A DNA stretch of 7,367 nt, from contig JAQVQJ010000061.1 of assembly GCA_028701635.1 (NCBI GenBank), positions 1 through 7,367 of the forward strand, written 5' to 3'. Both the position numbers and the translations under genes were made by a program. The stretch comes from Clostridia bacterium. Its GTDB lineage: Bacteria > Bacillota_A > Clostridia > Christensenellales > UBA1242. Below are positions 2,736 to 7,367 of this stretch, piece after piece; the first letter of the stretch is position 1, and every line of letters starts with the position of its first letter. Below the pieces are notes generated by a model. That model was not told the DNA's origin and ran no database searches. It saw only the letters and a list, made by a program, of their open reading frames with translations.

Positions 2736-3098
2736 TTATATACAGCAAATTTCCATTAATTCTTCTGGGGTTATTTCTTCTTTAAATAAATTTTTATACA
2801 TTTCTGCCCTTGTTGTAGCTACCTCTGGGTTATTTAAAATTGCTTTCTTTGTAGCATTTAAGAATTCTTCTTTTTTTTCCTTTAATTTCTTATCTTTTAT
2901 ATTAACAACTTCTTCTAACTCATCAAGTTCTTTTAATTTAGAATTATAATATTTTCTTTTTTCTTCTATATATTCTTTTGTTAGTAATTCTTTTTCTATA
3001 ACCTCTCTAACAAATTCTGAAATGTTAATATCAAAAGTTTCCAGAGCTTTTTTTATCTCTTTTCCGTATCTGAAGTTAGACATATATGTTTTTTCCAT
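2736..3098 (-). CDS. Ribbon-helix-helix DNA-binding protein with coiled-coil tail, 120 aa
   Basis: The frame is open upstream to 3185, but the start is set at 3098 because that ATG lies 25.5 bases from the centre of a TATA box at 3120-3127, the same spacing as at the MCM promoter. Residues about 6-39 have the ribbon-helix-helix layout: a short strand (MSNFRYG), helix 1 (KEIKKALETF), a turn (DINIS) and helix 2 (EFVREVIEKELL). The INISEFVRE stretch is typical of archaeal CopG/VapB-like repressors and antitoxins. Residues 40-82 are strongly charged and form a predicted coiled coil, followed by a helical C-terminus (91-120). RHH proteins act as dimers on inverted or tandem repeats. The gene lies beside the 15-bp repeats at 3150-3574 and is the best local candidate to bind them and to control its own promoter. 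No toxin partner is visible. Confidence 0.8.
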   Translation of the reverse strand: MEKTYMSNFRYGKEIKKALETFDINISEFVREVIEKELLTKEYIEEKRKYYNSKLKELDELEEVVNIKDKKLKEKKEEFLNATKKAILNNPEVATTRAEMYKNLFKEEITPEELMEICCI

Positions 3099-3119
3099 AC
3101 ATCTATTATAAGTAATTAC

Positions 3120-3127
3120 TTTATAAA
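3120..3127 (-). promoter_or_regulatory. TATA box for the RHH gene (leftward)
   Basis: On the minus strand AGAAAGA precedes TTTATAAA. The centre is 25.5 bases from the A of the ATG at 3098, predicting a leaderless mRNA. The first 15-bp repeat (3150-3164) begins 23 bp upstream of this box, close enough for a bound protein to influence it. Confidence 0.75.
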
Positions 3128-3149
3128 TCTTTCTAAATTGAAACAAAAT

Positions 3150-3284
3150 GCAAAAGCTTATAAAGAGTAATTTATAAAAAAGCAAAAGCTTATAAACTGA
3201 TGTTGTCCTTTGGATTTGCCAATTTTTATCAATTTTATGTGTAAAAGTATCAAATATTTCTAAAAAAAAGCAAAAGCTTATAAA
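3150..3284 (+). repeat. Left iteron array: three direct copies of a 15-bp element
   Basis: Exact GCAAAAGCTTATAAA occurs at 3150-3164, 3182-3196 and 3270-3284, all in the forward direction. The first two are 32 bp apart, close to three helical turns, so proteins bound there would face the same side. Bases around the copies are also similar (A or T before, G or C after). Another TTTATAAA lies at 3171-3178 between copies one and two. These repeats mirror the reversed copies at 3463-3574. Confidence 0.9.
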
Positions 3285-3334
3285 GAGAAGTGGGATTTTT
3301 TAAAAAAAGTTATTTTTATTCTCTCCAAAAAAGG

Positions 3335-3445
3335 TGTTGTATAGTGTTGTATAGCATTATTGTATTGTATAGTGTTGTATAGTATATTATTAATGTATAT
3401 TGTTGTATAGTATCATTATTCTTATTATTATTATTATTATTATTA
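3335..3445. repeat. AT-rich core: TTGTATAG repeats and (TTA)8
   Basis: TTGTATAG occurs five times (3337, 3347, 3365, 3375 and 3403), four of them as TGTTGTATAG; two pairs are exact 10-bp tandems. Eight TTA triplets (3422-3445) follow. There is very little G or C outside the repeat units. This sits between the two iteron arrays and is the natural place for strand opening, i.e. a candidate DNA unwinding element. Confidence 0.85.
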
Positions 3446-3462
3446 TATTTTTACACTATTAG

Positions 3463-3574
3463 TTTATAAGCTTTTGCTTTTTTTCTTGTTTTTATGTGTA
3501 AATTTTAACTTTTCTTGTACAAAGTGAGTTTATAAAGCTTTGCATTGTAAAATCTCGAGTTTATAAGCTTTTGC
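3463..3574 (-). repeat. Right iteron array: three reversed copies of the 15-bp element
   Basis: TTTATAAGCTTTTGC (the reverse complement of the left element) occurs exactly at 3463-3477 and 3560-3574. A variant, TTTATAAAGCTTTGC, lies at 3529-3543. The last two are 31 bp apart, matching the 32-bp spacing of the outermost left pair. All three point towards the core. The variant shares 15 consecutive bases (AAAGCTTTATAAACT) with the promoter at 5841. Confidence 0.9.
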
Positions 3575-3597
3575 ATTTATCTTTGTTTTTTATGTAA

Positions 3598-3658
3598 TTC
3601 GTAAGTGAAAATGACGATTTGCTGGATATTTTTATATAAATACTTTCACTTATCCGAA
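3598..3658. repeat. Long inverted repeat beside the iteron region
   Basis: TAAGTGAAA (3602-3610) pairs with TTTCACTTA (3644-3652). The arms extend with TTCG (3598-3601) and CGAA (3655-3658) after a two-base bulge, giving 13 paired positions around a 33-base AT-rich spacer. It could be a cruciform, a dimer-binding site or an RNA hairpin. No TATA box sits at the right distance to make it an obvious transcript. Confidence 0.7.
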
Positions 3659-3678
3659 CTTAACCAATTCAAGACAAG

Positions 3679-3699
3679 TAGTTACCTAATGGGTAACTA
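3679..3699. repeat. Perfect 8-bp inverted repeat, 5-base loop
   Basis: TAGTTACC (3679-3686) and GGTAACTA (3692-3699) are exact reverse complements around TAATG. It lies about 75 bp upstream of the MCM TATA box. This compact, relatively GC-rich palindrome in very AT-rich DNA suits an operator for a dimeric regulator or a hairpin in a nicking or primer site; the sequence does not decide which. Confidence 0.75.
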
Positions 3700-3772
3700 A
3701 TGCACACAGCCTCTTTGCTTATAAGTATATATTGCCAAAAACATATTTAAGGGAAAAATATATCTAGAAAGT

Positions 3773-3780
3773 TTTATAAA
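3773..3780 (+). promoter_or_regulatory. TATA box for the MCM gene
   Basis: TAGAAAGT precedes TTTATAAA. The centre is 25.5 bases before the ATG at 3802, predicting a leaderless mRNA, which agrees with the lack of a Shine-Dalgarno there. A second TATA-like palindrome, CTTATAAG, lies at 3718-3725, but no start codon is placed for it. Confidence 0.85.
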
Positions 3781-3801
3781 CTGAACAAGTATAGTTAAAC
3801 T

Positions 3802-5808
3802 ATGGAGTTTGAGGAGAGTGAAAAAAGAGAAGTGAGTGAAAGCCCAAATAAAGGGATTAATAACCCAAAGGAAGCACTAGAAAGGTTAAAAATATTGTTA
3901 GAAAATAGGGTGATAAAAAGAGATTCTTTACAGTTTATATTTGATTTTGAAGAAGTATTAGAATACGATCCTTTCTTTATTGATTATTTTTTAGAAAATC
4001 CTTCCATAATTGTGGATTCCTTAAGATCAGAGATAAGAGAGAGATATGGAGAAGAATATTCAGTATTTTTTAAAAATCTTAATGTTAATGAAAATATTTC
4101 AGATATTAGAGTAGAACATCTTGGTAAGATGGTAAAAGTAAAGGGTATGCTTTCTAATGCAACACCTGCAATGATGCTAGTAAAGTCTAGAGTGTTTAAT
4201 TGTGCTTCTTGTGGTACAAATATCACAACAGAAGGAAAAGTGCCTCTACGATGCTCCTGTGGGCGAAAAGGAGGGTTTTATGTTGTAAGCACAGAGTATG
4301 AAGACTTACAAGAAATAGTGTTAGAAGAGAATCAAGACGAAATAGGAGATAGAAGTCCTAAAAAGACAAGAGTTAGATTAGTAGATAAATTATGTGTAAA
4401 AGAAATGAATAATATTATAAAAGATGGAAGTAAAATTGAGGTTATTGGAATAGTTCAGGAAATACCCCTAAAAAAAGATGCTAAACTAGAAGAAGAGATT
4501 TATCAATTTAGAATTTTTGCATTACAAGTAAATAGTTTAGATACAGAATTTGATGAAACAATTACAGAAGATGATATAATGGATATAGAAGAAATAAGTA
4601 TGGATAAACCCTTAGATAGGCTTTCTAATAGTCTTTGTCCAAACATTATCGGAAACGAATTAATTAAAAAAGCCCTTATATTAAGTATGGTCTCTGGAAC
4701 TGAAAAGAAATTAGTAGATGGTAAAAGAGAAAAAGATAAAATACATATTTTGTTAGTTGGTAGTGCTGGATTGGCTAAGACTGAAATGTTACAAGCAGTT
4801 GCTCGTAGACATTTTAAAGGAAGATATGCTAGTTGTGAAAGACTTAGTGAAGTAGGTATTGTTGGAGGTGTTGAGAAAGATGAGATTACTGGATCTTGGG
4901 GATTAAAATGTGGGTTACTTCCAAAGCAAAACAAGGGATTACAAATTTTAGATGAATTGGATAAAGCAGATAGAGGAGTTCAAAAAGCACTTCATACTCC
5001 AATGGAATCTGGAGTAGTATCTATAAATAAGGCAGGAATTAATGCATTGCTTAGTGCAGATTGTACCGTTATATGCGGTGCTAATCCTAAAAATTCTAGA
5101 TTCGATATAAATAAGCCAATTGTAGAGCAGATTAATATGGAACCAACTCTTTTATCTAGGTTTGATTTAATCTTTGTTATGACAGATAGTTTAGGAGAAA
5201 AAGAAGATGAAGAAATTGCTAAAAGTATTTTTGAGGATAGCAAACCCGAAATAGAATTAATTGATTTAAGTTTATTTAAGAAATATATAAAACATGCAAG
5301 TAAATTAAAACCAAAATTTAATGAAGAAGCAAAAACAGAAATTACTAAATTTTATCCAGAGATTAGAAGATTATCTAAACGGATGGAGTCCGGAATGGAA
5401 GGTATGCCTATTGTTCCTAGACAGTTAAAAGGAATTAAAAGATTAAGTGAAGCATCTGCAAAGATAAGATTAAGCAATACAGTAGAAATACAAGATGCAA
5501 AATTTGCTATAGAACTATTTAAATACTCTTTACTTAAACTTGGAATGGATTTGGAAAATGGTCTTTTCGATATGGCAAGAATCTCTGGAGGAAAGACGGT
5601 TAGTAAAAGACAAAAGATGGAATTAATATTAGGAGAGTTAAGAACTTTGATTGGTTCTGGAGGGGGAGTACCAAATAATGATTTTAAGGCACTTGTTAAA
5701 AATAAGTTTAGTATTGAAGCAGACGAGTTTTATAATATAATGGAAATGTTACACCAAGAAAATCTTGTAATAAATTCTGTTCAAGGTTGGAAACTAGTAA
5801 ACAGCTAA
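3802..5808 (+). CDS. mcm: MCM replicative DNA helicase, 668 aa
   Basis: MCM forms a ring (usually a hexamer) that unwinds DNA 3' to 5' ahead of the replication fork, using ATP. Domains seen in order: an N-terminal helical domain (about 20-95); an OB region with a zinc site C134, C137, C151, C153; an AAA+ core with Walker A GSAGLAKT (320-327), Walker B LQILDELD (Asp384-Glu385), sensor-1 Asn428 in GANPK, arginine finger R453 in LLSRFDLIF, and sensor-2 R540 in VPRQLKGIKRLSEA; and a C-terminal winged-helix domain (about 600-668). The KAGINALLSAD stretch (410-420) is the usual pre-sensor hairpin region. The length is normal for archaeal MCMs and all catalytic residues are present, so it should be active. 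The Walker A has SAGL where cellular MCMs usually have DPGT, which suggests a divergent element-borne lineage. The start follows from the leaderless promoter. The gene lies directly beside the candidate origin. Confidence 0.97.
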   Translation: MEFEESEKREVSESPNKGINNPKEALERLKILLENRVIKRDSLQFIFDFEEVLEYDPFFIDYFLENPSIIVDSLRSEIRERYGEEYSVFFKNLNVNENISDIRVEHLGKMVKVKGMLSNATPAMMLVKSRVFNCASCGTNITTEGKVPLRCSCGRKGGFYVVSTEYEDLQEIVLEENQDEIGDRSPKKTRVRLVDKLCVKEMNNIIKDGSKIEVIGIVQEIPLKKDAKLEEEIYQFRIFALQVNSLDTEFDETITEDDIMDIEEISMDKPLDRLSNSLCPNIIGNELIKKALILSMVSGTEKKLVDGKREKDKIHILLVGSAGLAKTEMLQAVARRHFKGRYASCERLSEVGIVGGVEKDEITGSWGLKCGLLPKQNKGLQILDELDKADRGVQKALHTPMESGVVSINKAGINALLSADCTVICGANPKNSRFDINKPIVEQINMEPTLLSRFDLIFVMTDSLGEKEDEEIAKSIFEDSKPEIELIDLSLFKKYIKHASKLKPKFNEEAKTEITKFYPEIRRLSKRMESGMEGMPIVPRQLKGIKRLSEASAKIRLSNTVEIQDAKFAIELFKYSLLKLGMDLENGLFDMARISGGKTVSKRQKMELILGELRTLIGSGGGVPNNDFKALVKNKFSIEADEFYNIMEMLHQENLVINSVQGWKLVNS

Positions 5809-5840: not shown

Positions 5841-5848
5841 TTTATAAA
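5841..5848 (+). promoter_or_regulatory. TATA box for the operon after MCM
   Basis: CCGAAAGC precedes TTTATAAA. The centre is 25.5 bases before an ATG at 5870 rather than before the 74-aa gene at 5928. Fifteen consecutive bases here (AAAGCTTTATAAACT) are shared with the reversed repeat at 3529-3543, so the same protein could act at both sites. An AT palindrome-like stretch (5811-5831) between the MCM stop and this box may help to end MCM transcription. Confidence 0.8.
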
Positions 5849-6152: not shown

Positions 6153-6385
6153 GTGAAGATACCTGTAAATACTTTAAAGAATGTTTTTGTGGAGAGCCCG
6201 CAACAGCAATAATAAGATCTATGCCTGTTTGTAAAAAACACTATAAAGAACTGAGGTATGATAATGAGAGGAGATTTAAAAGAAATGTAGATATACCTTG
6301 TTTTGATGAAAACAATCCAGAAATAGCCTCGCAAAAGCTTCCAAAAAAGAAGAAAAGAAAAACAGATATATCGAAAAGTTTATAA
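6149..6385 (+). CDS. Small zinc-finger protein with basic tail, 78 aa
   Basis: C12, C14, C28 and H31 (CFC...VCKKH) form a probable CxC-X13-CX2H zinc site, with C6 as a further possible ligand. Short proteins of the form 'CGEPAT...PVCKKHY' are frequent in archaeal and phage genomes, where their function is unknown. The tail (65-72) holds KKKKRK, suggesting contact with nucleic acid. Translation is probably coupled to the PC4-like gene through the ATGA overlap at 6149-6152. The 3' end of the gene carries the TATA box of the next gene, and a GCAAAAGCTT match to the iteron core lies at 6331-6340 in the coding sequence, probably by chance. Confidence 0.75.
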   Translation: MSEDTCKYFKECFCGEPATAIIRSMPVCKKHYKELRYDNERRFKRNVDIPCFDENNPEIASQKLPKKKKRKTDISKSL

Positions 6386-6840: not shown

Positions 6841-6910
6841 GGCTAATCGTATAGTGGCATTATATTTGATTTGCAATCAGAAGACACGAGTTCGATTATC
6901 GTTTGGTACA
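6840..6910 (+). tRNA. tRNA-Ala(UGC)-like element, possibly degenerate
   Basis: The 71 bases fold as a cloverleaf. The T loop TTCGATT (6891-6897) is perfect. The D loop AGTGGCA (6853-6859) keeps A14, G15, G18, G19 and A21. U8 and C48 are present. The anticodon stem TTTGA/TCAGA has five pairs (one U-G) around the loop TTTGCAA, giving anticodon UGC (Ala). The acceptor stem carries G3-U70 (6842/6907), the main alanine identity element, and the discriminator is A73. Against a functional tRNA, positions 1-72 (T/C), 2-71 (G/A), 13-22 (T/T) and 53-61 (G/A) do not pair, the variable loop has only four bases, and no TATA box is placed for it. CCA is not encoded, which is common in archaea. It may be a decayed tRNA, a tRNA mimic, or part of an attachment site. 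Confidence 0.5.
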
Positions 6911-6911
6911 T

Positions 6912-7142
6912 TTATTTAACAAAAAATATTTGTTTTGTTTTTTTATTTCTTTCGTATGTTCCTTTAAATATATTTTTTTCTATACAAGGAACTAGAACAT
7001 CCGCTCTTCTTATTTTTCCCTCTTTTTCTAATCTGCAGAGATACTTAGACAATGTTCCTTGAAGTATTCCCAATTCCTTACCTGCTTCATTCTGATAGCA
7101 AGGATTATGTTTTTTAACATATTTATATATTTCGTTTTCCAT
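6912..7142 (-). CDS. Winged helix-turn-helix regulator, 76 aa
   Basis: Residues about 5-44 form the helix-turn-helix: helix 1 (IYKYVKKHN), helix 2 (YQNEAGKELG), a turn (ILQG) and a recognition helix (TLSKYLCRLEKEGKIRR). A beta wing follows (47-76, ADVLVPCIEKN, then TKQIFFVK). This is the fold of MarR/ArsR-type and archaeal DNA-binding regulators; no effector-binding domain is present, so it probably senses nothing by itself. The start is chosen from a minus-strand TATA box at 7163-7170, 24.5 bases away (leaderless). The gene converges on the tRNA-like element, ending two bases from it, and is divergent from the RNA at 7237, whose promoter it could control. Confidence 0.8.
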   Translation of the reverse strand: MENEIYKYVKKHNPCYQNEAGKELGILQGTLSKYLCRLEKEGKIRRADVLVPCIEKNIFKGTYERNKKTKQIFFVK

Positions 7143-7170: not shown

Positions 7171-7209
7171 TCTTTTTATAATTCAACCCCTATTAAAAAT
7201 ATAGAAAAC

Positions 7210-7217
7210 TTTATAAA
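7210..7217 (+). promoter_or_regulatory. TATA box for the RNA at the right edge
   Basis: TAGAAAAC precedes TTTATAAA, as in the other promoters. The usual spacing of 23.5-25.5 bases puts the transcript start at about 7237-7239, which is where base composition rises sharply. Confidence 0.7.
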
Positions 7218-7236
7218 GTCTATTTAATTTAAATAA

Positions 7237-7367
7237 ATGCGAGTTAATCCACTTGGAGTTAATGCTTTGATGCAGATGTCGCGGTTACCGGTTAAAACCG
7301 ACTTGATATAGGTTCCAAGATATAAACAAAAACTACTTGGTTTACGGTCCAAGGCACAATTGGTAGG
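7237..7367 (+). ncRNA. Probable structured non-coding RNA, cut by the window edge
   Basis: No frame is open from a start codon to the edge; the only leaderless frame (ATG 7237) stops after 24 codons at 7309-7311. By hand count 54 of these 131 bases are G or C, against 13 of the preceding 94. Possible stems: GCGA (7239-7242) with TCGC (7279-7282); CGGTT-AA-AACCG (7289-7300); CTTGG (7336-7340) with CCAAG (7349-7353), enclosed by CTAC (7333-7336) and GTAG (7363-7366), of which only one can use C7336. The module CTTG-N8-TCCAAG occurs twice (7302-7319, 7336-7353). A promoter lies just upstream. I do not recognise it as RNase P, SRP or a known tRNA. A 24-aa leader ORF remains an alternative for the first part. 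Confidence 0.5.

Follow-up and report, generated by a model that had tools for sequence, protein, structure and literature searches.

Introduction

In the P2-like phages the lytic and lysogenic promoters lie face to face, and in phage 186 the interval between pR and pL holds seven direct repeats, spaced by 10–11 bp, whose binder represses both promoters, as outlined in PMC7498355. Transcription is reported to assist origin opening in lambda, and iteron plasmid origins are described as generally transcription-independent (PMC5043065). As to the archaea, their origins are depicted as AT-rich elements flanked by ORBs (PMC4010727), and the origin proposed for pRN1 is a stem-loop downstream of the rep operon (PMC4234260). 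The archaeal core promoter comprises a TATA element, paired with TBP, and a BRE, paired with TFB, these parts being named in PMC5569661.

The window considered here, i.e., the whole stretch of DNA analysed (7,367 nucleotides), probably belongs to a small archaeal mobile element encoding an MCM. To our knowledge, the replication start of MCM-encoding archaeal plasmids and viruses is largely open. The original prediction read a set of 15-bp repeats located in front of the mcm gene as the iterons of a candidate new type of archaeal origin. Judging from the sequence, the arrangement of these repeats is real and unusual, and it is more likely to be promoter-based than to represent a new class of box.

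Results

The element and its genes

The gene that follows the repeats, as originally stated, encodes an MCM replicative helicase (3802–5808, + strand; Pfam MCM 2e-64, MCM_lid 7.4e-20, MCM_OB 1.3e-14; phrog_10371 3e-125), for which no PF14551 match was obtained in Pfam. mcm was the only replication gene recognised among the 12 window proteins scanned, several of which have no family match; cdc6 is absent from these 12, and no cognate iteron initiator (Rep or O) was recognised among them.

The protein search returned 686 MCM relatives, the scoring being confined to the 7995 candidates that share most words, and the best 120 of the 686 were considered. In a tree of 44 of these 120 proteins, the window MCM belongs to a clade of 22 members (support 0.905) that is separate from the 22 remaining MCMs. 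One clade member, P0022, is labelled Thorarchaeota. Four long, domain-inserted homologues (P0006, P0012, P0018, and P0113) were deliberately left out of the tree; all of them carry PF14890, and P0006 and P0018 also PF14528, which we take to be intein and homing-endonuclease domains, respectively. The MCM matches found in genome contigs (80 of 174 kept) are 31–39% identical in their best segments and are mostly titled Pacearchaeota, Woesearchaeota, or other DPANN, which makes a DPANN archaeon the likely host and a DPANN origin of the MCM gene probable. The co-occurrence of a separate MCM with unknown small genes suggests that the element is mobile, and the MCM clade may be mobile too; the element would be a plasmid or a virus.

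On the other side of the repeats, a reversed gene (2736–3098, − strand) encodes a 120-aa protein, possibly a ribbon-helix-helix (RHH) DNA-binding protein with a long helical tail. The original prediction called it an RHH protein. It does have the look of one by eye, but the best family match of this kind (NCBIfam VapB_Sulfo, E 0.015) is below the cut-off, and in the structural model, for which two sequences were used, nearly everything is helical and strands are missing (pLDDT 84); the assignment is thus weakly supported. The protein has one relative besides itself (P0127, 85% identical), and its best sequence match among solved structures is an unrelated protein (E 0.15).

Other features of the window lie further away. 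A 261-aa protein (893–1678, +), without a family match in Pfam or NCBIfam, has what by eye resembles a P-loop and, possibly, a Walker B. A tRNA-like Rfam match (6841–6910, +; 33.1 bits) was not called by ARAGORN; besides this, the Rfam scan of the window gave only a chance mir-651 match far below threshold. At 6912–7142 (−) a small winged-helix protein is encoded (FaeA-like, Pfam E 3e-6), transcribed away from a strong predicted promoter with its TATA at 7210. The latter opens the stretch 7195–7367 (+), which has only a 24-aa frame at the expected start and is cut by the contig end; it is possibly an RNA gene, but it gave no Rfam match and no sign of folding (z = 0.67).

A face-to-face array of 15-bp boxes

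The region between the reversed small gene and mcm (3128–3801; GC 0.24) is free of ORFs of at least 50 aa, save for a TTG-started upstream extension of the reversed gene. Scanning the window confirmed the reported arrangement of five exact 15-mers and one variant, three forward and then three reversed. The exact sequence GCAAAAGCTTATAAA occurs on the + strand at 3150–3164 (box 1), 3182–3196 (box 2), and 3270–3284 (box 3), and on the − strand at 3463–3477 (box 4) and 3560–3574 (box 6); the variant GCAAAGCTTTATAAA, with three mismatches, occupies 3529–3543 on the − strand (box 5). The pair spacing given as 31–32 bp was measured as 32 and 31 bp at the two ends, i.e., about three helical turns. 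The near symmetry claimed for the outer pairs about position 3362 is borne out by the outermost pair (centre 3362) and by the next one (3362.5); the centre of the inner pair (3373.5) is displaced by approximately 11 bp.

Allowing up to three mismatches, the 15-mer has eight matches in the window against 1.25 expected, a number reached in none of 200 shuffles; the two matches outside the array are at 6331 and 6372. Likewise, the commonest 12-mer of 3128–3801 is present in five copies, and 300 Markov shuffles never gave more than three. Together with the promoter-model counts given below, these shuffle tests rule out a chance origin of the box array.

The region contains other repeats. A direct repeat with TTTTATGTGTAAA is found at 3223–3245 and 3480–3502, with a shorter similar stretch near 3588. 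Between the array and mcm there are a 9-bp inverted repeat (TAAGTGAAA / TTTCACTTA, 3602–3652), with arms 33 nt apart, and a perfect 8-bp inverted repeat (TAGTTACC / GGTAACTA, 3679–3699), with 5 nt between the arms.

The boxes match archaeal core promoters

The 15-mer fits the BRE-plus-TATA pattern of the archaeal core promoter, a feature that the original prediction missed. Following the established anatomy of archaeal promoters, we read the left part of the box as the BRE and the right part as the TATA element. We described this promoter with a model of 16 positions, fitted by EM to 883 upstream sequences from loci L002–L081, which are archaeal and mostly DPANN by title; the window was excluded from the fit. 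The TATA-to-ATG distances of these reference loci peak at 29 nt (61 sites) and 30 nt (26 sites), and 96 of the 140 sites scoring at least 10 in the 50-nt upstream sequences lie 27–32 nt from the ATG.

The window itself has eight sites of the form [CA][GA]AAANN-TTTATAAA followed by an ATG 27–33 nt after the first T of TATA, a spacing that echoes the 29–30 nt peak of the reference loci. Among them are the predicted ordinary promoters of mcm (TAGAAAGT TTTATAAA; 3765–3780, +) and of the reversed gene (TAGAAAGA TTTATAAA; 3120–3135, −), whose TATA elements stand 29 nt before the ATGs at 3802 and 3098, respectively. Frames of 49 to 668 aa begin at six of these ATGs; the sites at 5841 and 7210 are followed by ATGs with frames of just 24 aa.

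When both strands of the window were scanned with the model, ranks 1–9 were taken by the eight ATG-linked sites and by the variant box, which ranks 7th with a score of 13.5; an earlier model derived from 234 sites had placed the same nine sites on top. The five exact boxes score 10.1–10.4 (ranks 13–17). The sites at ranks 10–12 (1292, 2798−, and 7217−; scores 10.7–11.9) outscore five of the six boxes and have no listed ATG at 27–33 nt; therefore, the promoter model yields false positives at this score level. Within 3128–3764, exactly six sites score at least 10, and they are the six boxes. By comparison, 2000 Markov shuffles of this stretch gave a mean of 0.447 such sites and a maximum of five, so that none reached six. 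Under a stricter threshold of 10.35 only three boxes pass, and 5 of 400 shuffles reached three; the threshold of 10.0 was used instead. As for the variant box, its three changed letters leave GCAAA-NN-YTTATAAA intact and improve the promoter match over that of the exact boxes.

In other respects the boxes are atypical as promoters. None of the six has an ATG 27–33 nt further on; box 2 (TATA at 3189) has downstream a TTG with a 15-aa frame. Of 96 reference sites, 2 have the GC at positions −7/−6 that all six boxes show, and 8 have the C that five of the six boxes show at position 0 of the TATA. Moreover, five boxes are identical over 15 letters despite differing flanks, whereas the eight ATG-linked sites are eight different 15-mers. 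This sameness, combined with the odd letters, implies either that a second specific protein also reads the box or that the boxes form a distinct promoter class. Since five identical boxes are more alike than promoters need to be, a second specific binder is possible, and this is the part of the original idea that survives. Most simply, the 15-mers would be BRE/TATA core-promoter modules like the window's own promoters.

Applying the 29-nt rule to the boxes gives predicted starts at ~3186, ~3218, and ~3306 for boxes 1, 2, and 3 (rightward), and at ~3441, ~3507, and ~3538 for boxes 4, 5, and 6 (leftward). The inner starts fall either side of the core repeats described below: that of box 3 just before them, and that of box 4 directed into them, with a T6 run ~110 nt further. 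For four of the six boxes, a T-run of at least five occurs no further than ~110 nt from the predicted start, and the box transcripts may end there.

The core contains 28-bp repeats and the weakest duplex

The core was reported to contain TTGTATAG repeats and (TTA)8, and both are there: TTGTATAG at 3337, 3347, 3365, 3375, and 3403, and (TTA)8 at 3422–3445. What had been missed is that the TTGTATAG pairs belong to three 28-bp direct repeats (3337–3420, +), candidate iterons or operator. These correspond to a TRF row (3337–3418, period 28, score 115) that is the best-scoring of the 16 tandem-repeat rows in the window. The unit identities are 23, 21, and 22 of 28, and the two-period identity is 0.80 vs. 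at most 0.69 in 500 shuffles. Within each repeat, two TTGTATAG-type units follow one another at a distance of 10 bp, or one helical turn; in copy 3 the first of the two is degenerate.

By nearest-neighbour sum, 3368–3468 is the 100-bp stretch with the weakest duplex in the window (−95.7 vs. a mean of −115.7), which the original prediction had likewise not pointed out; it includes (TTA)8 and is a candidate unwinding element. It overlaps the 28-bp repeats and continues past them, within the box array; the second-weakest stretch (2349–2449, −98.0) is close in value. Direct repeats beside an AT-rich unwinding element, by which iteron origins are recognised, are thus present in the sequence. We also considered a structured RNA in the core and rejected it, finding no support on either strand (z = 0.29 leftward and −1.28 rightward).

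These results bear on the original reading, in which the boxes are iterons for a dedicated initiator and their resemblance to promoters would be incidental or would serve competition with TBP/TFB. The identity of five boxes amid differing flanks, so unlike the diversity of the ATG-linked sites, speaks for it, as do the near-symmetric outer pairs three turns apart and the AT-rich centre. On the other hand, the variant box departs from the others in the very direction that raises the promoter match while keeping the promoter letters, mcm stands alone as a recognised replication gene among the scanned proteins, and the 28-bp repeats inside the array seem to be better iteron candidates than the 15-mers. 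The iteron reading of the 15-mers is not supported as originally worded, and a dedicated initiator seems rather unlikely. That an initiator other than Orc1/Cdc6 acts here would be pure inference.

Evidence for and against an origin

The origin architecture originally claimed finds partial support. An AT-rich, repeat-bearing region free of long frames lies upstream of mcm, with the weakest 100 bp inside the array; on the other hand, the skew turning point expected near 3360 is absent, GC skew being positive on both sides. Computed in 500-base steps, GC skew sinks to roughly zero or lower over the two reversed genes and nowhere else; AT skew stays below zero between ~2500 and 3750, and 8 of the 10 forward genes have a positive GC skew at third positions. 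Because gene direction dominates the skew, the missing switch is weak evidence against an origin. Origin function is plausible for the region, which may serve the element as the start site of its replication or as the place where that decision is taken.

An origin of the host Orc1/Cdc6 type with divergent ORB boxes was weighed as well. Inverted boxes around an AT-rich element follow the archaeal origin plan of PMC4010727, and the absence of an Orc1/Cdc6 gene from a 7.4-kb contig means little, since an Orc1/Cdc6 match is present in 118 of the 119 genomes sampled from the probable phylum of the host. Against this, 3128–3801 contains no ORB-like core, i.e., neither TGGAAAC nor TCCAN(1-2)GGAAA, a crude consensus from which the DPANN ORB may differ; boxes as ORBs were rejected on this ground, in agreement with the earlier remark that the element is not an obvious ORB box. 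We give an Orc1/Cdc6-type origin the least credence of all the readings. A search for a common DPANN ORB in 30 chromosomal cdc6 loci, mostly with 1.5 kb of flank, brought out nothing common: an exact 11-mer repeated three times is found in 2 of the 30 (L117 and L137), and an ORB-like core in 3 of the 30 (L113, L115, and L119).

Related sequences and other mcm elements

The original prediction expected the same box order next to mcm in related elements, an expectation that the searches did not bear out: a degenerate box-pair pattern, which would miss a diverged box, gave no hit in viral contigs and none in 371 genomes, sets that lie outside the closest MCM relatives. Of 140 partly overlapping records (1.43 Mb) scanned for a face-to-face array of an exact 12-mer, the window alone had one, and blastn of 3100–3801 against phages and plasmids gave no match. 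No such array is described in the titles and abstract beginnings of the papers surveyed.

Searches of viral contigs with the MCM alone and with an 8-sequence alignment found no relatives; a 22-sequence alignment found one distant locus. At E 1e-120 the 8-sequence alignment matches 294 of 371 genomes in the phylum of G001 (L002, titled Pacearchaeota), which is the range of chromosomal MCM, and 2 of 195 in the phylum of G003 (L047, titled Lokiarchaeota). In a tandem-repeat scan upstream of mcm in L001–L109, the window was outranked by L043 and ranked ahead of the Altiarchaeum virus; the L043 repeat (period 21), which outscores the window repeats, lies upstream of a chromosome-type mcm.

Five MCM-encoding elements were compared (Altiarchaeum virus, pFS01, pMEFER01, MFTV1, and pTN3), the upstream scans covering the first four. 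Upstream of mcm, the Altiarchaeum virus has three copies of a 39-nt repeat plus 31-nt inverted repeats, pMEFER01 two short direct repeats in addition to an imperfect inverted repeat of 79 nt (71%), and MFTV1 two tandem 14-mers. In pFS01 (L141:659–838), GATAAG-type repeats spaced by multiples of 10 bp precede an HTH gene and mcm, in a stretch with no listed gene on a plasmid whose gene table is incomplete. Direct-repeat arrays of at least three copies thus occur in 2 of the 4 scanned elements, and inward boxes in none of the 4; the sites matched by a generic promoter expression numbered at most one per upstream region in these four vs. 7 in the window.

Discussion

We tentatively propose, with a probability of about 0.4, that 3128–3801 is a replication-control region of a probable MCM mobile element, in which inward promoters are directed across the weakest duplex and an array of repeats resembling iterons or an operator. 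Starting from the observed anatomy and promoter match, we infer the following course. TBP and TFB would bind the six orphan boxes, and RNA polymerase would start inward. The one-turn-spaced TTGTATAG repeats would be covered by a protein that binds them, perhaps the 120-aa protein encoded next to the region, and that blocks both directions. Once this blocker leaves, polymerase opening and transcription near 3440 would help to melt the AT-rich element, where MCM could then be loaded.

The same anatomy could instead be a transcription switch with no origin, in which rightward transcripts towards mcm run against leftward ones towards the 120-aa gene, with their balance controlled, as in P2-like phages, by a regulator bound to the 10-bp-spaced repeats. 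The arrangement of phage 186 is a model for this, and binding of tandem ATAGATAG repeats at promoters is reported for the archaeal viral RHH repressor F55 (PMC5569661); in the window, a possible regulator gene lies to the left of the boxes and a replication gene to the right. However, both genes already have their own predicted promoter 29 nt before the start, and the leaders of the box transcripts would run for hundreds of nucleotides and cross T-runs. Furthermore, the inner predicted starts are ~135 bp apart vs. 40–60 bp in P2-like phages, three boxes per side seem excessive, and an RHH fold of the 120-aa protein is weakly supported. A switch of this kind is worth keeping in mind, though we consider it rather doubtful.

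A bolder version of the proposed control region is that the general transcription factors themselves mark the origin: inward TBP/TFB boxes would replace the Orc1/Cdc6 boxes, and polymerase would melt the DNA from both sides for the element's MCM. We hold this to be very improbable; if true, the region would be an archaeal origin licensed by promoters.

With promoter boxes facing inward, iteron-like repeats, and a candidate unwinding element in one compact region, the locus would lend itself well to testing whether archaea use transcription-coupled initiation or a decision switch of the phage type. More generally, where exact repeats flank AT-rich DNA in an archaeon, a comparison with BRE/TATA should come before any assignment as iterons.

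How the locus stands among known systems can be summarised as follows. Like the core promoters of leaderless archaeal genes, the boxes fit the model of the reference loci in spacing and sequence and resemble the window's own promoters; unlike them, they are orphan, nearly identical, present in six inward copies, and marked by GC at −7/−6 and mostly C at 0. Like Orc1/Cdc6-ORB origins, the region has inverted repeats flanking an AT-rich element, but it has no ORB core, no cdc6 among the scanned proteins, and promoter-like boxes. With the iteron origins of bacterial plasmids and lambda it shares repeats that adjoin an AT-rich unwinding region, and transcription assists opening in lambda; it differs in its MCM gene, in having no recognised Rep or O, and in the promoter boxes that frame the array. 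Among MCM-encoding archaeal elements, the Altiarchaeum virus and pFS01 also have mcm with repeats upstream, but the repeats differ and the MCMs are ~27–32% identical to that of the window. By analogy, the closest precedent for how the region might work is the face-to-face promoter switch of the P2-like phages: in sequence anatomy, P2/186 and the window both have convergent promoters, here predicted ones, with one-turn direct repeats between them, whereas the window has three boxes a side, archaeal promoter elements, a wider spacing, and genes that keep their proximal promoters.
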